A stretch of DNA of 35,905 nucleotides from Nanobdellota archaeon (lineage in GTDB: Archaea; Nanobdellota; Nanobdellia; SCGC-AAA011-G17; GW2011-AR17), in contig JAHJRD010000073.1 in NCBI GenBank assembly GCA_018830945.1, positions 1 to 35,905 on the forward strand, given 5' to 3'. Both the position numbers and the translations under genes were made by a program. The notes beneath the pieces were generated by a model. That model was not told where the DNA came from. It did no database searches and saw only the letters and a list, made by a program, of their open reading frames with translations. This document shows, piece by piece, positions 6,149 through 32,538 of the stretch; position 1 is the stretch's first letter; each line of letters begins with the position of its first letter.

Positions 6149-6796
6149 CTATCTCTTTCCCGTATTCCTCATCCTTCCAATAGCCCTAACCCTGTCTTTT
6201 GCTTTGAAAATATAGCTTCCTGCAACAACAATATCAGCGCCTGCTGCAAAAGCCGCCTTTGCTGTTTTCGCGTTTATCCCGCCGTCAGCAGAGAATATGG
6301 CTTTTCTTGCTGAAGGGAACATCTTTTCAATATATCTTCTTGATGAAATCTTCCCAAGCGGCTCTTCAATAAATCTCTGCCCACCCTTGCCTGGGTTTAC
6401 AGTCATTATCTGCATATAATCCGTAAGCGCCTCTGTAATATGCGTCTCAGGGTTGTATGCAATGCCAAGATTGATGCCATATTTTCCTGCCTCTTCCATC
6501 ATCTGAATCCTTTCAATCGCGTTTCTCATTATTTCATAATGCACAATAACCCTTTCCACGCCTTCATTTACTAATTCCTCAAAATGCTGTTCAGGATTAT
6601 GCATCATCAAATGAACTTCAATCGGCTTTCTTGTTCTCAGCCAGGTTTTTTTAACAACAGAAATATCGTAATAGTTTTCAGGAACAAACAATCCATCCAT
6701 GAAGTCAATGTGAAACCCGTCAACAAACGGCTCAACAGAATCTATTTCTTTTTCAAGATTGTTTTTGTCAGCAGCCAGCAAGGAAGCGTATATCAT
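6149..6796 (-). CDS. rpe: Ribulose-phosphate 3-epimerase
   Basis: SLLAADKNNLEKEIDSV....FHIDFMDGLFVPE, VHLMMHNPEQ, MTVNPGKGGQRFIEE, FSADGGINAKTAKAAFAAGADIVVAGSYIF. Confidence 0.95.
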   Translation of the reverse strand: MIYASLLAADKNNLEKEIDSVEPFVDGFHIDFMDGLFVPENYYDISVVKKTWLRTRKPIEVHLMMHNPEQHFEELVNEGVERVIVHYEIMRNAIERIQMMEEAGKYGINLGIAYNPETHITEALTDYMQIMTVNPGKGGQRFIEEPLGKISSRRYIEKMFPSARKAIFSADGGINAKTAKAAFAAGADIVVAGSYIFKAKDRVRAIGRMRNTGKR

Positions 6797-7818
6797 TTTA
6801 CCATTGCCGCAACATAGATATTATTCTTGCTCTCAAGGATTTTTACCCTTGCTCTTTTTCCAATCGCTGTCTTGCAGTTATTAATGCTGATGCACCTTTC
6901 TTTTGCAACGCCAATCATCTGGCCTTTTATCCAGCCAGGGCATTTTACAAGAACCTGCGCCTTATCTCCTTTCTCAAACATACTTGGCAGTCGTTTTGCC
7001 TTGTGTATGCTAAAATCAGCAGCAGTCATCACAAGCTTCATGCCATATTCTTTTTCCAAAGCTTTTAACTGCTGGTAAAACTTCCAAAAGTTCACTTGCT
7101 TTGCCCCTTTTACCTTCCTGCTGTACCTGTATATCTCATACTTTTGTATGCCTATTTTTGCATTAAGCTGCTTTGCAAGCTGGATCAATCTAGGCATTTC
7201 AGCGTCATTTATCTTTGGAATCCAGACAGGAGCTATCAAAAGCTCAATGCTTGAGTCAGAGATGATTTTTGCAAGCTGAAGTATATGTTCCAGGCTGTAA
7301 TGCGGAATCCCGCTTAAGTCTACTGCCTGAAACTGGTTCAAGGAGCTTATTGAAAGGTTAATCTGGTTCATTCCTGCTTTTTGCAATGCATAAACCTTGT
7401 CCCCTTCCAATAAAACCCCGTTTGTCTGCATTGAAACCCTTTTAACGCCTTTAATTGCTTTTAATCCTTTTACAAGCTCAATTAAATGCGGGTATGTTGT
7501 AACTTCGCCAACAGAATCAATGTTTATTTCGCATTCTGTTTGTTCGCTGCTGCTCTCAACTTCACTTCGCTCCGCTCGCGAAGTTTCCTTGAATCTTACA
7601 ACCTTTTCAATCTCCTCAAGAAGATAGCTTACATCAACGCTAAAGCATGTAGGGTGTATGTCAGGGTTGTTTGCGCTTACTGAGCAGAACCTGCATTTCA
7701 GGTTGCACCCTGACACAGGCCTTACTTGAAGCAGGTCAGTTCCCCTGTCTATAATGCCGAATGCAATGCACCCTATTAATGGGATTCCTGATTCTTTTGT
7801 AATATGTATTAATTCCAT
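6793..7818 (-). CDS. Archaeal radical SAM protein with C-terminal TRAM-like region
   Basis: RPVSGCNLKCRFCSV CxxxCxxC cluster motif; TNGVLL; C-terminal KAQVLVKCPGWIKGQMIGVAKERCISINN. Confidence 0.85.
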   Translation of the reverse strand: MELIHITKESGIPLIGCIAFGIIDRGTDLLQVRPVSGCNLKCRFCSVSANNPDIHPTCFSVDVSYLLEEIEKVVRFKETSRAERSEVESSSEQTECEINIDSVGEVTTYPHLIELVKGLKAIKGVKRVSMQTNGVLLEGDKVYALQKAGMNQINLSISSLNQFQAVDLSGIPHYSLEHILQLAKIISDSSIELLIAPVWIPKINDAEMPRLIQLAKQLNAKIGIQKYEIYRYSRKVKGAKQVNFWKFYQQLKALEKEYGMKLVMTAADFSIHKAKRLPSMFEKGDKAQVLVKCPGWIKGQMIGVAKERCISINNCKTAIGKRARVKILESKNNIYVAAMVK

Positions 7819-10235: not shown

Positions 10236-11144
10236 GTGGTTGAAATGGAAACAAATGAAAAGCGCGGGCATCTGCACCTGCACACAGGCGCATCTGACGG
10301 GCTTGTGACAATAGAAGACATAGCAGAATCAGGCATTAGCTTTACTGCAATAACAGACCATGACACAATGGAAGGCATTGGAAAGTTCATGGCTTTGGAA
10401 AAGCACGGCATAGAAGTCATCCCTGGAATAGAATTGTCAGCAAGGCATATGGGAAAGAACATGCATATGCTTGTATATTATCCAAAAGCAAAGCCAGAGC
10501 TCTATGCAATGCTTGAAGAATTCAGGATGAAGAGGGTTAAAAGGGCATTGACAACAGCAGAAAAACTCGCAGAGCATGGCATAATAATGGACAGGGCCGC
10601 GATACTTGCTGAAAAAGGGCTTATTGCAAAAGGAAACATGGCAAGGATGGCTTTAGATTACCCTGCAAACAGGGCTTTGCTTGCAACGCAAGGTATTAAG
10701 GATGCGCAGGAATTCATACAGGCATACTTGAATAAAAACAAGCCAGGGCATGTAAAGCTTGGCGGCATGGAAGTGTCAGAGCTTATAAAGCTTGTTGACG
10801 GCGTGAAGGTTCTTGCCCATCCTGCGCATAACCTTGACATGGGAACACACGATTATATTGTTGAAGACTTAGCTAAAAATTACGGAATTTGGGGCATTGA
10901 GGTGTGGACAAGAAAGCACGACCCTGGCGCGCCTGAATATTATCTTAATCTTGCAAAAAAGCTTGGGCTTTACCCGATTATCTCAAACGACGTGCACGCA
11001 AAAGAGGATTTGAGTGAGAATAGAGCTCCTTATGAGATGGTTGAGGCGATAAAGAAACAAAAAACAGGTTTTAAGGCTCAGCAGGGCGCCTTGCACTGTA
11101 GGCACTCCATAATCTCGCAGCTTTTTCCTTGTCCATATCCATAA
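10236..11144 (+). CDS. PHP domain phosphoesterase
   Basis: HLHLHTGASDGLVTIEDIA, ITDHDTMEG, PGIELSA, LAHPAH, SNDVHA. Confidence 0.88.
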   Translation: MVEMETNEKRGHLHLHTGASDGLVTIEDIAESGISFTAITDHDTMEGIGKFMALEKHGIEVIPGIELSARHMGKNMHMLVYYPKAKPELYAMLEEFRMKRVKRALTTAEKLAEHGIIMDRAAILAEKGLIAKGNMARMALDYPANRALLATQGIKDAQEFIQAYLNKNKPGHVKLGGMEVSELIKLVDGVKVLAHPAHNLDMGTHDYIVEDLAKNYGIWGIEVWTRKHDPGAPEYYLNLAKKLGLYPIISNDVHAKEDLSENRAPYEMVEAIKKQKTGFKAQQGALHCRHSIISQLFPCPYP

Positions 11145-11637
11145 GGATTATTGCATATTCATTTGCAGCTTCAAAAAACCTTGCTGCATTTTCAACTATA
11201 TCTCCTTCTACCCTCATCCCCATGCCTTCAATCATCTCCACAGTTGAGAAATCAAGATAGCTCACAGAATTTCCGCTGCTTGGCTGGTACAATTCAATTA
11301 TGCCATTGCAGTCAACATCAGTCCATTTATCTGTAATCTCAGTAAGCAGTATTCTCTTTTCAAGAAATTCGCCAAAACATCCTTCCCTTCTAAGCATTGG
11401 CTTCATAAAAGTATATTCGCCGCACCATATCTGAAAGCCATATTCATCCATCACAACAACTGCTGTTTCCCCGCAAAAGCCAAGCCTTGTTGGAATTTTT
11501 TCAACTTCAACGCCTTCAGGCAATCCATACATTATCCTAAGAGTCTCGTTTTGGCTTACGATTGGCTCATAATCCCTGGAAGCAGTTGTAACAGCGCATG
11601 TTCCTGCAAGCAACGCAATCAAGGCAAGCCTTCTCAT
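11071..11637 (-). CDS. Secreted protein, member of the local paralog family (third gene of operon)
   Basis: Start MRRLALIALLAGTCA overlaps stop of upstream gene (ATGA); FCGETAVVVMDEYGFQIWCGEY, VDCNGIIELY, DKEKAARLW; 3' end overlaps convergent PHP gene by 74 bp. Confidence 0.75.
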   Translation of the reverse strand: MRRLALIALLAGTCAVTTASRDYEPIVSQNETLRIMYGLPEGVEVEKIPTRLGFCGETAVVVMDEYGFQIWCGEYTFMKPMLRREGCFGEFLEKRILLTEITDKWTDVDCNGIIELYQPSSGNSVSYLDFSTVEMIEGMGMRVEGDIVENAARFFEAANEYAIILMDMDKEKAARLWSAYSARRPAEP

Positions 11638-12131
11638 AATTTGCCTCTTGGAGGAGCATGATACCTGAATCTCCATCTTGCATCAACTTCCCTCTGCCCA
11701 ATGCCCTCAAGCGTTTGATTATACTCATCTGCCTGCTCTTGTGTGGCAGGGCTGCTTTCTTCAACAAGCTGGTAATAGCTGTAATTCGGCCTGTGCCTTA
11801 ACATCCAATGCCAATAAATGTCAATGTTTTCATCACAACCATAATCAACAACTCTCTTTCTTTCATCTTCTGCCTCATACAAAAGCCGCGCTGTGCATCC
11901 TGCATCTGTTTCCATGTATGAAAAGCTGTAACCATCGCAGTCAATTGTGTAGAATCTATCATCCATCCTTACTGTCGGATTATTATTGCACAAAGGCGCA
12001 TTATATTCAGGCGCAGGCTGGCGCCATACAGCCGGCTGATGATTTGGAGCAGGCAATGCAGCAGGCATAGAACATCCTGCAAGAATCGGAGCCAATGCCA
12101 TCAGGTTTCTTAGAATGTTGCGCTTTTCCAT
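11634..12131 (-). CDS. Lipoprotein, member of the local paralog family (second gene of operon)
   Basis: MEKRNILRNLMALAPILAGC lipobox; LCNNNPTVRMDDRFYTIDCDGYSF; IGQREVDARW. Confidence 0.75.
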   Translation of the reverse strand: MEKRNILRNLMALAPILAGCSMPAALPAPNHQPAVWRQPAPEYNAPLCNNNPTVRMDDRFYTIDCDGYSFSYMETDAGCTARLLYEAEDERKRVVDYGCDENIDIYWHWMLRHRPNYSYYQLVEESSPATQEQADEYNQTLEGIGQREVDARWRFRYHAPPRGKL

Positions 12132-12661
12132 TTTTCCCATGCTATTTCCACTTCCTCCTTTCCAATGCCTCTTCGTAAAAACCAATCATATGTTCCCTGT
12201 TCATTCTCAGACGGGGGAATCCTAGAATCCACTATGCTGACAGGGCTTTCGTTCCAGCTTGCGCCGTCCCAATAAGTCCACATTCGCCATTCATCTGCAA
12301 TCTCGTCTGTGTCTTCATCAATCCATTCCTCTTTTCCAACCAATGTCTGGCCTGAATAAGCATACCATGCCAAATTCTCGCTGCATGCGCTGTTGCATAT
12401 ATGGCGAAATTCCAAATCACCATTGCAGGAAATCACGTACTCGTTTTCCCTGAACACCACATAAGGCTGGTTGTCGCATGCAACAGCATCTTCAGCATAA
12501 ATATTTCCTGAAAATTCATTTGGCAAGACTGAATCGTCTGCTGTTTCTTGGATGTTTTGTATGCCTGTTTCCTGCTCAGGCAGGGGCATAATCACGGGGG
12601 TTTCTCTTGCGCAACTGCTTAAGGCGGCTATAACAATTGCTGTTAGCACTCTTTTCATCAT
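12110..12661 (-). CDS. Lipoprotein, member of the local paralog family (first gene of operon)
   Basis: MMKRVLTAIVIAALSSCA lipobox; ACDNQPYVVFRENEYVISCNGD; IGKEEVEIAWEKW; TATA-like TTTATAAAGG upstream. Confidence 0.78.
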   Translation of the reverse strand: MMKRVLTAIVIAALSSCARETPVIMPLPEQETGIQNIQETADDSVLPNEFSGNIYAEDAVACDNQPYVVFRENEYVISCNGDLEFRHICNSACSENLAWYAYSGQTLVGKEEWIDEDTDEIADEWRMWTYWDGASWNESPVSIVDSRIPPSENEQGTYDWFLRRGIGKEEVEIAWEKWKSATF

Positions 12662-17483: not shown

Positions 17484-17948
17484 TTATACCGCATTCAACG
17501 TCACAAGAGAAGGACTTGCAAGAAAAGCCTCCCTTTTAAGCTCGTCAATTATATAGAATGTCTCCTTGTTTGTAATCTTGAACTTATGCTCAATTGTCTC
17601 AAGAAAATCCTCCATGTCCTTGATATGCTCGAAAATCATCTCAGCCATGAAGTCAAAGCCGTTGTTGACTTTCAAAAGCGTGTTCACGTGCTTGCTGATA
17701 TTTAGAAAATTCTGGAGCTTCTGCCTCTCTGTCTTGTCAACCTTGAGCATGACTTTTGCCCTTGTATTGTAGCCGAGCCTGCCGAAATCAACCAGGGCAG
17801 TGTGCTTTCTTATCAGCCCCTTGCTGTACGAGTGTATCTTCTCATGCAGGGTTGAAACAGGTATGTTTGTTTCCTTGCTCATGTCAGTCAGGCTCTTCCT
17901 GCAGTTCTGCCTTAGCGATGCGATGATTGCCAGTTCCCTTTTATCCAT
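17484..17948 (-). CDS. Lrp/AsnC-like HTH transcriptional regulator
   Basis: MDKRELAIIASLRQNCRKSLTDMSKETNIPVSTLHEKIHSY winged-HTH, RAM-like C-terminal half. Confidence 0.82.
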   Translation of the reverse strand: MDKRELAIIASLRQNCRKSLTDMSKETNIPVSTLHEKIHSYSKGLIRKHTALVDFGRLGYNTRAKVMLKVDKTERQKLQNFLNISKHVNTLLKVNNGFDFMAEMIFEHIKDMEDFLETIEHKFKITNKETFYIIDELKREAFLASPSLVTLNAV

Positions 17949-18184
17949 TTTTTTGTCCTCCTGAGTTTTGCGAAGGGAGGCTCAGAATGCAAGTCCTGAA
18001 CGTCCCCCTTGGCTTGTGTAAATCTGAACACAAAGCCGCAAATCTTTCCAGAATTCCGTAAATTGGGGCGTACTTAAAGCTAATCCATATAAATTATATA
18101 ATTTATATAATTCTGCAAAAAGCGTATTAGAACGGGGTTTTGCCCGCAGAAAGTTTATATATCATAAAACCCTAAGAATTATCA

Positions 18185-31001: not shown

Positions 31002-31055
31002 AGCGCCTCCAACAATTTTATAAACTTCTAAATACATTATTAAAGCAAGAAAAAG

Positions 31056-31108
31056 GAGGCATCGGAAATAACTTTCCGGGCCTCTCTTCGTTAAAACTCG
31101 AGAGGTGA
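31056..31108 (+). promoter_or_regulatory. RuBisCO 5' leader with alternative hairpins, one masking the Shine-Dalgarno
   Basis: Hairpin 1: GAGGC(31056-60)/GCCTC(31080-84) plus CGGAAA(31063-68)/TTTCCG(31073-78), loop TAAC. Hairpin 2: CCTCTC(31081-86)/GAGAGG(31100-05), overlapping SD GAGGTGA (31102-08). Confidence 0.6.
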
Positions 31109-31114
31109 TTTGAA

Positions 31115-32413
31115 ATGGCAGGATATGAAGATTTCATTGACTTAAAATACAAGCCTGACTCGCATGATGTGATTGCATCATTCAGGGTAAAGGTACCAAG
31201 GTGGAGCTCTGCAAAAAGAGCATGGGGCGCTGTTGCAGCTGAAAGCTCAGTAGGCACATGGTCTCCGTTAAAAGCAATGAATTACAAAAATGTAAAAGCA
31301 GTTGCCGCAAAGGTGTTTGAGGCAAAAGGCGAATGGATTAAGATTGCATATCCTGAAGAGCATTTTGAAGAAGGCAACATGAGCCAGATTCTTGCTTCTA
31401 TTGCAGGCAATGTGTTTGGGATGAAAGCAGTGGATGCATTAAGATTGGAAGATATTGAATTCACTAAAAAGATTGTAAAGTCATTCCCAGGGCCAAAATT
31501 CGGAAGAAAAGGCATAAGAAAGATATTTGGAATATATGACCGGCCATTAATGTTATCAGTTGCAAAGCCAAAAGTGGGATTGACAACAAAGCAGCATGTG
31601 GAAGTTGGAAGGCAGATATGGGAAGGCGGCTTGGATTTATTGAAAGACGATGAAAACCTTTCAAACCAGTCATTTAATCCGTTTGAAAAAAGAGTCAAGG
31701 AAAGCCTGAAAGTAAGGGATAAGATTGAAAAGAAAACAGGGGAGAAAAAAAGCTATTTAATCAACATAACAGGCCCTACTGTGAAAGAGATGGAAAAAAG
31801 AGCGAAATTCATAAAAGCGCAGGGCGGAGAGTATGCAATGATTGACATTATCACAACAGGATGGGCGTCTGTTGCATCAATAAGAGAAATCTGCGGCGAC
31901 TTGGGATTGGCTCTGCACGCGCACAGGGCTATGCACGGCGCAATGTCAAGAGTGCCAACGCACGGCTTTTCAATGGAATGCATTGCAAGCTGCGCAAGAT
32001 TATTAGGAGTTGACCAGCTGCATATTGGAACTGCAAATATAGGGAAACTTGTAGGCTCTGCAGCTGAAGTCATTGAACTTGAAGATGAGATTACTTCTGA
32101 CTTGAACAAGGAAAACAAGCAATTGCACTGCCTTGAGCAGGATTGGTTTGGAATAAAGCCAGTATTCCCTGTTTCTTCAGGCGGATTGCATCCCCTGCTT
32201 GTTGACAAGGTAATGGACAAATTAGGCACTGACATAATGCTGCAGATTGGCGGCGGAATACATGGGCATCCATCAGGTTCTTATGCAGGAGCAAGAGCAA
32301 TGCGGGAAGCAGTGGAAGCATACATGGCTGGTGTTGATTTGGCTGTTGCTGCTAAGAAGTGCAAGGAATTGAAAGTTGCATTGGACTACTGGGGCAGAAA
32401 AGGAACCAGATAG
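31115..32413 (+). CDS. rbcL: Ribulose-bisphosphate carboxylase, archaeal form III-like
   Basis: Catalytic motifs intact: AAESSVGTW, VAKPKVGL, GGLDLLKDDE (carbamylated Lys), LHAHRAMHGA, IGKLVG, PVSSGGLHP, LQIGGGIHGHPSG. Confidence 0.96.
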   Translation: MAGYEDFIDLKYKPDSHDVIASFRVKVPRWSSAKRAWGAVAAESSVGTWSPLKAMNYKNVKAVAAKVFEAKGEWIKIAYPEEHFEEGNMSQILASIAGNVFGMKAVDALRLEDIEFTKKIVKSFPGPKFGRKGIRKIFGIYDRPLMLSVAKPKVGLTTKQHVEVGRQIWEGGLDLLKDDENLSNQSFNPFEKRVKESLKVRDKIEKKTGEKKSYLINITGPTVKEMEKRAKFIKAQGGEYAMIDIITTGWASVASIREICGDLGLALHAHRAMHGAMSRVPTHGFSMECIASCARLLGVDQLHIGTANIGKLVGSAAEVIELEDEITSDLNKENKQLHCLEQDWFGIKPVFPVSSGGLHPLLVDKVMDKLGTDIMLQIGGGIHGHPSGSYAGARAMREAVEAYMAGVDLAVAAKKCKELKVALDYWGRKGTR

Positions 32414-32538
32414 CTTGAGAAAAATATTGCATAAATCCCGGTGTTTCTGGGGACTGAAGCAATAGCGGAAGTCGCCAAGGGGCTCAAGCGGCGTACTGCT
32501 TGCTGCGGGCAGGAAAGGAACAAGATAGCTTGAGAAAA
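32392..32538. repeat. Imperfect 32-bp direct repeat spanning the RuBisCO stop codon and repeated downstream
   Basis: GGGCAGAAAAGGAACCAGATAGCTTGAGAAAA (32392-32423) and GGGCAGGAAAGGAACAAGATAGCTTGAGAAAA (32507-32538), 30/32 identical. Confidence 0.85.

Follow-up and report, generated by a model that had tools for sequence, protein, structure and literature searches.

Promoters, RNase sites and peptides are among the features known from short mobile repeats, and single-strand elements of the REP and IS200-IS605 kind combine imperfect hairpins, a short target-complementary strand and empty sites that keep no footprint. Prokaryotic MITEs (Correia, ERIC, RUP, BOX) are non-coding dispersed repeats whose transcripts are structured; their sites occur empty or filled, and direct repeats flank them (PMC2229807, PMC3049150). 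Rickettsia palindromic elements (RPE), in turn, are short palindromic repeats spread through the genome, some of them in frame within protein genes (PMC10969869). The review passages that describe MITEs, ERIC, Correia, RUP, BOX and RPE place none of them at a Shine-Dalgarno sequence (SD).

We analyzed a window of 35,905 nt (the whole stretch of DNA under study) from a Nanobdellota archaeon (genome G000), in which two competing hairpins precede the RuBisCO gene rbcL. This hairpin pair is probably a recent copy of a short dispersed palindromic element, inserted into the rbcL SD; the best reading of the family is a palindromic mobile repeat that leaves a bistable leader at SDs. The element resembles RPE as a short dispersed palindrome that also occurs as in-frame insertions (ProRS, SecF, a GatE-like ORF); however, it is archaeal, 38–57 nt long, located mainly exactly at SDs and equipped with an anti-SD strand, and the likeness drawn here is one of layout. 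It is multi-copy with orthologous empty sites, as MITEs are, whereas bacterial MITEs typically measure ~100–200 bp with terminal inverted repeats, and the flanking repeat here is the SD itself. Classical terminal inverted repeats are absent from the unit, which starts with YATCGA and ends with AAACTC inside the GGAGG repeats; the flanking GGAGG (up to AGGAGGCTA at tfs) may belong to the element itself instead of being a duplicated target. Imperfect hairpins, footprint-free empty sites and a target-complementary strand are shared with REP and IS200-IS605 elements, but no consistent Y1 transposase accompanies the element and its complementarity is plain Watson-Crick to GGAGG. Similarly, one anti-SD strand serves two alternative hairpins, as in SD-sequestering riboswitches and RNA thermometers, but we identified no conserved ligand pocket and no pathway-specific genes, and presence is sporadic. 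A known RNA family was rejected, since an Rfam search at gathering and lax thresholds returned no relevant match, and the open-access literature searched contained general work on small repeats only, with no description of such an element. As far as searched, no mobile repeat has been described that targets a ribosome-binding site, re-creates it and introduces an anti-SD hairpin.

The rbcL leader and its orthologues

The coordinates of the leader and of a second copy in the window are collected in Table 1.

Table 1 Features of the rbcL leader and of the second element copy in the window.
Feature	Position	Strand	Basis
Lrp/AsnC-like regulator downstream of second copy	17484..17948	-	HTH_24; weak, below-cut-off NCBIfam Lrp match
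Second element copy, SD 8 nt before ATG of Lrp-like regulator	17957..18007	-	R1 E=1.7e-5, R2 E=1.3e-10
TATA-like box of rbcL, archaeal, TTTTATAAAC	31016..31025	+	Aligned with 3 same-genus orthologues
Strand A, GGAGGC (original SD position and 5' strand of hairpin 1)	31055..31060	+	Orthologue alignment; fold
Insertion, 46 nt (core, anti-SD, linker, second SD)	31060..31105	+	Absent from 3 same-genus rbcL leaders
Hairpin 1 inner stem, CGGAAA-TAAC-TTTCCG, followed by unpaired G 31079	31063..31078	+	Family covariation
Strand B, GCCTCTC (anti-SD strand, used by hairpins 1 and 2)	31080..31086	+	Fold, covariation
Linker, TTCGTTAAAACTC	31087..31099	+	Conserved as TCGTAAAACTC in other-genus copies
Strand C, GAGAGGT (working SD, 3' strand of hairpin 2)	31100..31106	+	Sequence, fold, covariation
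rbcL, form III RuBisCO	31115..32413	+	TIGR03326 rubisco_III 571 bits; PF00016/PF02788

In hairpin 1, GGAGGC (31055–31060) pairs with GCCTCT (31080–31085) on the outside and CGGAAA (31063–31068) with TTTCCG (31073–31078) on the inside, closing a TAAC loop (31069–31072) and leaving AT (31061–31062) and a single G (31079) unpaired. In hairpin 2, CCTCTC (31081–31086) pairs with GAGAGG (31100–31105), with the SD inside the stem, ahead of the rbcL ATG at 31115. The two are mutually exclusive because bases 31081–31085 are common to both. A preliminary description had proposed exclusive hairpins of which the second buries the SD, and direct reading of the sequence places the stems, their overlap, the SD and the start codon where it had them. 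The TATA-like box that it had noticed before rbcL is conserved in the same-genus relatives, with ACAATTTTATAAA as the conserved part in the alignment with three orthologues, and the transcription start site would lie near 31045–31050. No intrinsic terminator was found for the gene upstream of rbcL.

RNA folding supported the structured leader of the preliminary description in one of its two hairpins. Hairpin 1 alone (31055–31085) reached -17.2 kcal/mol (z = -5.35), a value matched by none of 200 shuffles, whereas hairpin 2 alone (31080–31106; -9.6 kcal/mol, z = -1.27) was within chance and the whole leader (31045–31120) was unremarkable (z = -1.56). On the rbcL sequence alone only hairpin 1 stands out, and the support for hairpin 2 comes entirely from comparison of the family. 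Since hairpin 1 is ahead by ~7–8 kcal/mol at equilibrium, the predicted default is an SD freed from strand B; in this predicted fold, a small UUCG/CGAG helix touches the first SD bases.

Among relatives, RuBisCO was present in 89 of the 190 genomes searched. Three same-genus rbcL orthologues (87–90% identical) have leaders with the same TATA box and one SD, reading AAAAAGGAG-YGTG-...-AATGG, in which all of 31060–31105 is missing; AAAAAGGAG is common to strand A and to this single SD. The preliminary description had named a lack of conservation of either stem in close relatives as grounds for refutation, and at this gene neither hairpin is found in any of the three. The hairpin pair is therefore not a conserved RuBisCO leader, a possibility that these orthologues rule out. 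By eye, the hairpin leader was also not seen before rbcL of more distant relatives in the upstream regions examined.

At the other end of the gene, a 25-nt near-identical direct repeat (AAAGGAACMAGATAGCTTGAGAAAA) lies at the rbcL stop (32395–32424) and ~117 nt downstream (32512–32537); the stretch between is GC-rich and folds at -30.5 kcal/mol, and this arrangement was not seen after rbcL in three congeners.

Copies, target genes and empty sites

A search of the genome DNA with the rbcL leader returned similar sequences before psmA and mutS, and the pattern CTTCG-N-CTCGRGAGG occurs in five leaders of this genome, against none for the reversed pattern. A covariance model built from three leaders (R1), searched against 20 relatives, gave strong matches confined to this genus. 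A second model built from 38 leaders (R2) gave 26, 7, 9 and 11 matches at E <= 1e-3 in four genomes of the genus (~53 in total, with 26 in this genome), all genome-wide copy figures being those of covariance-model searches. Nearly all strong copies end in a GGAGG-like SD directly ahead of a start codon; for 39 of 60 first-round matches, an ATG opening a reading frame of at least 60 aa lies 2–12 nt past the element end, compared with 4.7% of random points. An exact-pattern search of GTDB genomes returned two contigs only, apparently the congeners' own, and has little bearing on spread.

The genes downstream of the copies are functionally unrelated. In this genome they encode proteasome alpha (psmA), the exosome RNase PH subunit, MutS, ribosomal P1/L12, TFS, MetK, dCTP deaminase (dcd), an Rpb4-like subunit, a nucleotide-sugar epimerase and a DsbA-like protein; in congeners, RadA, TBP, DnaG, an RFC-like clamp-loader ATPase with an intein, CobO, a band-7 protein and peptidase S49. 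The clamp-loader ATPase gene at L124 (G003, contig C60), interrupted by an intein (PF14890), has the element copy at its SD.

Two further arrangements were observed. Tandem arrays of the unit with one common GGAGG-like junction occur at L274 (G000, C55:24613), L269 (G319, C13) and L100 (G000, C90). Differently built anti-SD hairpins precede rfc (L212, C78), tbp (L213, C62) and cobO (L205, C12) of this genome; the cobO leader reads TTTTTAGGAGC ... GCTCCTAAAA ... AAAAAAGGAG before the gene, a differently built hairpin with an anti-SD strand.

We sought orthologues of 22 element-bearing genes with one concatenated query and compared their upstream DNA. Removing the unit while keeping one SD restored the orthologous sequence, as in the empty sites of psmA in G001 (AAAATC-GGAGG-TCGATAATATG) and, in G002, of a G001 lipoprotein gene (L104; AATAAC-GGAGG-ATTATACTATG). 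Alignment of the joined flanks to the empty site scored 36 for psmA, compared with at most 15.5 in shuffles, and the corresponding values were 38 vs 12 for the lipoprotein gene, 31.5 vs 15.5 for rpl12, 31 vs 13 for radA, 29 vs 11.5 for the L116 gene, 28 vs 13.5 for metK, 27.5 vs 12.5 for tfs and 23 vs 11.5 for rbcL. Scores were also clearly above shuffled controls for dnaG, the SPFH gene and the L093 gene, and a clean empty site was not shown by this comparison for lrp, mutS and rrp41. Because its removal restores the relatives' empty site, the unit acts like a dispersed element, specific to this lineage, whose insertion duplicates the SD.

Element presence at the same gene differs between sister species (G001 and G002 are sisters at 86.9% identity, other pairs having 75–81%): G000 and G002 carry the tfs and rpl12 elements, and G001 and G003 lack them. 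The orthologous copies at tfs, rpl12 and the pilin-like gene match one another best or nearly best, indicating that at least some were inherited and then cleanly lost elsewhere. The copies are diverged (~61% mean identity), so that movement is read from these patterns; with an identity of 0.612 within genomes and 0.608 between genomes, copies do not cluster more tightly within a genome, and no recent burst is visible.

Weaker matches in open frames are in-frame insertions with empty orthologues, found in ProRS (G003), SecF (G001) and a GatE-like ORF (G000); ProRS reads MAEEKDI-VAGAPGLPSRGSAGT-KGIT in G003 and MAEEKDI-KGIT in G002. These insertions add ~14–15 aa with an (I/F)VxxxPSLPS-like peptide, belong to a weak-scoring subfamily only (E from about 0.01 to above 1), and owe their assignment to the common core and layout. 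A copy abuts tRNA-His in G000, G002 and G003. Copies that involve no SD, such as those in coding DNA and beside tRNA-His, often retain the complementarity of strands A, B and C, an argument that the structure primarily serves the element. In three species, the GGCGG-ended copies L119, L134 and L100 either overlap the 3' end of tRNA-His or lie directly next to it.

An R2 search of 371 genomes of the phylum revealed sporadic clusters in further genera of this class, with 12–13 copies in G273, 4–5 in G302 and G319, and fewer elsewhere; of the 49 genomes in the G273 family, 46 gave no match at all. Most other-genus copies examined end ahead of a start codon, with layout and linker as in this genus, and covariation extends to 11 of 12 pairs. 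Such patchy bursts across genera are the pattern left by a mobile repeat.

Covariation of the two folds

The element (~38–57 nt) has the layout A (GGAGG-like), inner hairpin, B (CCTCC-like), linker UUCGUAAAACUC and C (GGAGG-like), and its core GAAACTNGCGTTTC and linker are common to unrelated sites and to different genera. In the R1 alignment, which was fitted to hairpin 1, all 12 pairs of that hairpin show two-sided changes, in 76 cells compared with 23 after shuffling; the signal collapses when the partner strand is slid, and a second alignment gave a similar result. For hairpin 2, which lies outside the model, we counted 19 two-sided cells vs 7 shuffled, and 15 vs 5 in the second alignment; these figures and those that follow are taken over related, non-independent sequences and are not formal probabilities. 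Where A and C differ, B is Watson-Crick complementary to C in 11 of 16 cells and to A in 3, a preference that partly reflects a C strand remaining canonical as A decays. Joint changes of B and C occur at rbcL, rfc, radA and the C105 gene. When halves are exchanged between copies, the native combination folds better in 67 of 70 cases for hairpin 1 and 47 of 70 for hairpin 2, and a 2-bp GU/AC closure inside the linker is modestly above shuffles. Covariation thus supports the retention of both hairpins, strongly for hairpin 1 and moderately for the SD-hiding stem; the competing hairpins of the preliminary description are borne out by compensatory changes across dozens of leaders.

Origin and possible function

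Under the mobile-repeat reading, the host SD would stay upstream as strand A upon insertion, and the right end of the element would supply the new SD (C); because C comes to lie at the old distance from the ATG, translation would survive. The transcript would fold either as hairpin 1 (A:B, SD free, the predicted default) or as hairpin 2 (B:C, SD buried), and hairpin 1 would keep the gene on by hiding anti-SD strand B, the insert thereby being tolerated. The element presumably moves as DNA, perhaps as single-stranded hairpins with the B strand recognizing GGAGG, and a single-strand mechanism in which B reads the target is attractive. Y1 transposases are encoded in G000, G002, G003 and G409, and none was found in the element-bearing G001, G273, G302, G319 and G359; beside Y1 transposase genes there was no element copy, only one weak 21-nt match. 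Absent from several element-bearing genomes and without neighboring copies, a Y1 transposase was rejected as the mover.

The covariation of both folds, the preference of B for C, the linker conserved between genera and the kept SD-ATG distance would also be expected of a cis-regulatory RNA family, in which a bistable leader places many housekeeping genes under common translational control (by temperature, ribosome or protein sensing), having spread by duplication with selection on both folds. We regard this as possible but unlikely: its targets have no common pathway, same-gene presence varies between sister species, the layout also occurs where there is no SD to control, as in coding DNA and beside tRNA-His, and the off state would need a trigger, as rbcL hairpin 1 is more stable by 7–8 kcal/mol. 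A bolder combination, which we hold to be rather unlikely, is a mobile riboregulator, a DNA element homing to SDs that installs a two-state leader and brings unrelated essential DPANN genes under shared translational control.

The core GAAACTNGCGTTTC and linker shared by unrelated sites and genera would not be supplied by quasipalindrome mutation, in which template switching at SDs generates an inverted-repeat copy of the SD and later templated correction maintains the match between the arms, neither selection nor transposition being needed. This process could account for B as the reverse complement of its target, including the A-run of the target in L096, L108 and L116, and for perfect long hairpin-2 stems such as those of L271 and L276; we nevertheless consider it improbable. 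The preliminary description had suggested an RNA switch in the RuBisCO leader that might sense a nucleotide or sugar phosphate of the pathway or a protein; in a RuBisCO-specific riboswitch, such a metabolite would shift the hairpin balance. Two folds that exclude each other and an SD buried in one of them suit such a switch at rbcL, but the element is missing from the three same-genus rbcL leaders and did not show up when the other upstream regions of rbcL examined were inspected by eye; it precedes psmA, mutS, metK and other genes, and has no Rfam match. The metabolite riboswitch is largely refuted, and we give it hardly any weight.

A mobile repeat of this kind would explain the tolerance of insertions before essential genes, and could offer evolution an easy path to translational switches. 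The case also calls for caution, since a conspicuous hairpin in the leader of one genome may be a copy of a repeat and not a dedicated riboswitch.

Elsewhere in the window, an ORF that appears radical-SAM-like by eye (6793–7818, minus strand) contains SRAERSEVESS, which resembles a palindromic coding repeat (compare PSERSEG, antisense at L122). Four small secreted lipoprotein-like ORFs (78–635, 11071–11676, 11634–12185 and 12110–12661) are alike by eye, carrying a C-N-P-x-V motif and Y-x-I-x-C-x-G, and may form a paralogous family.
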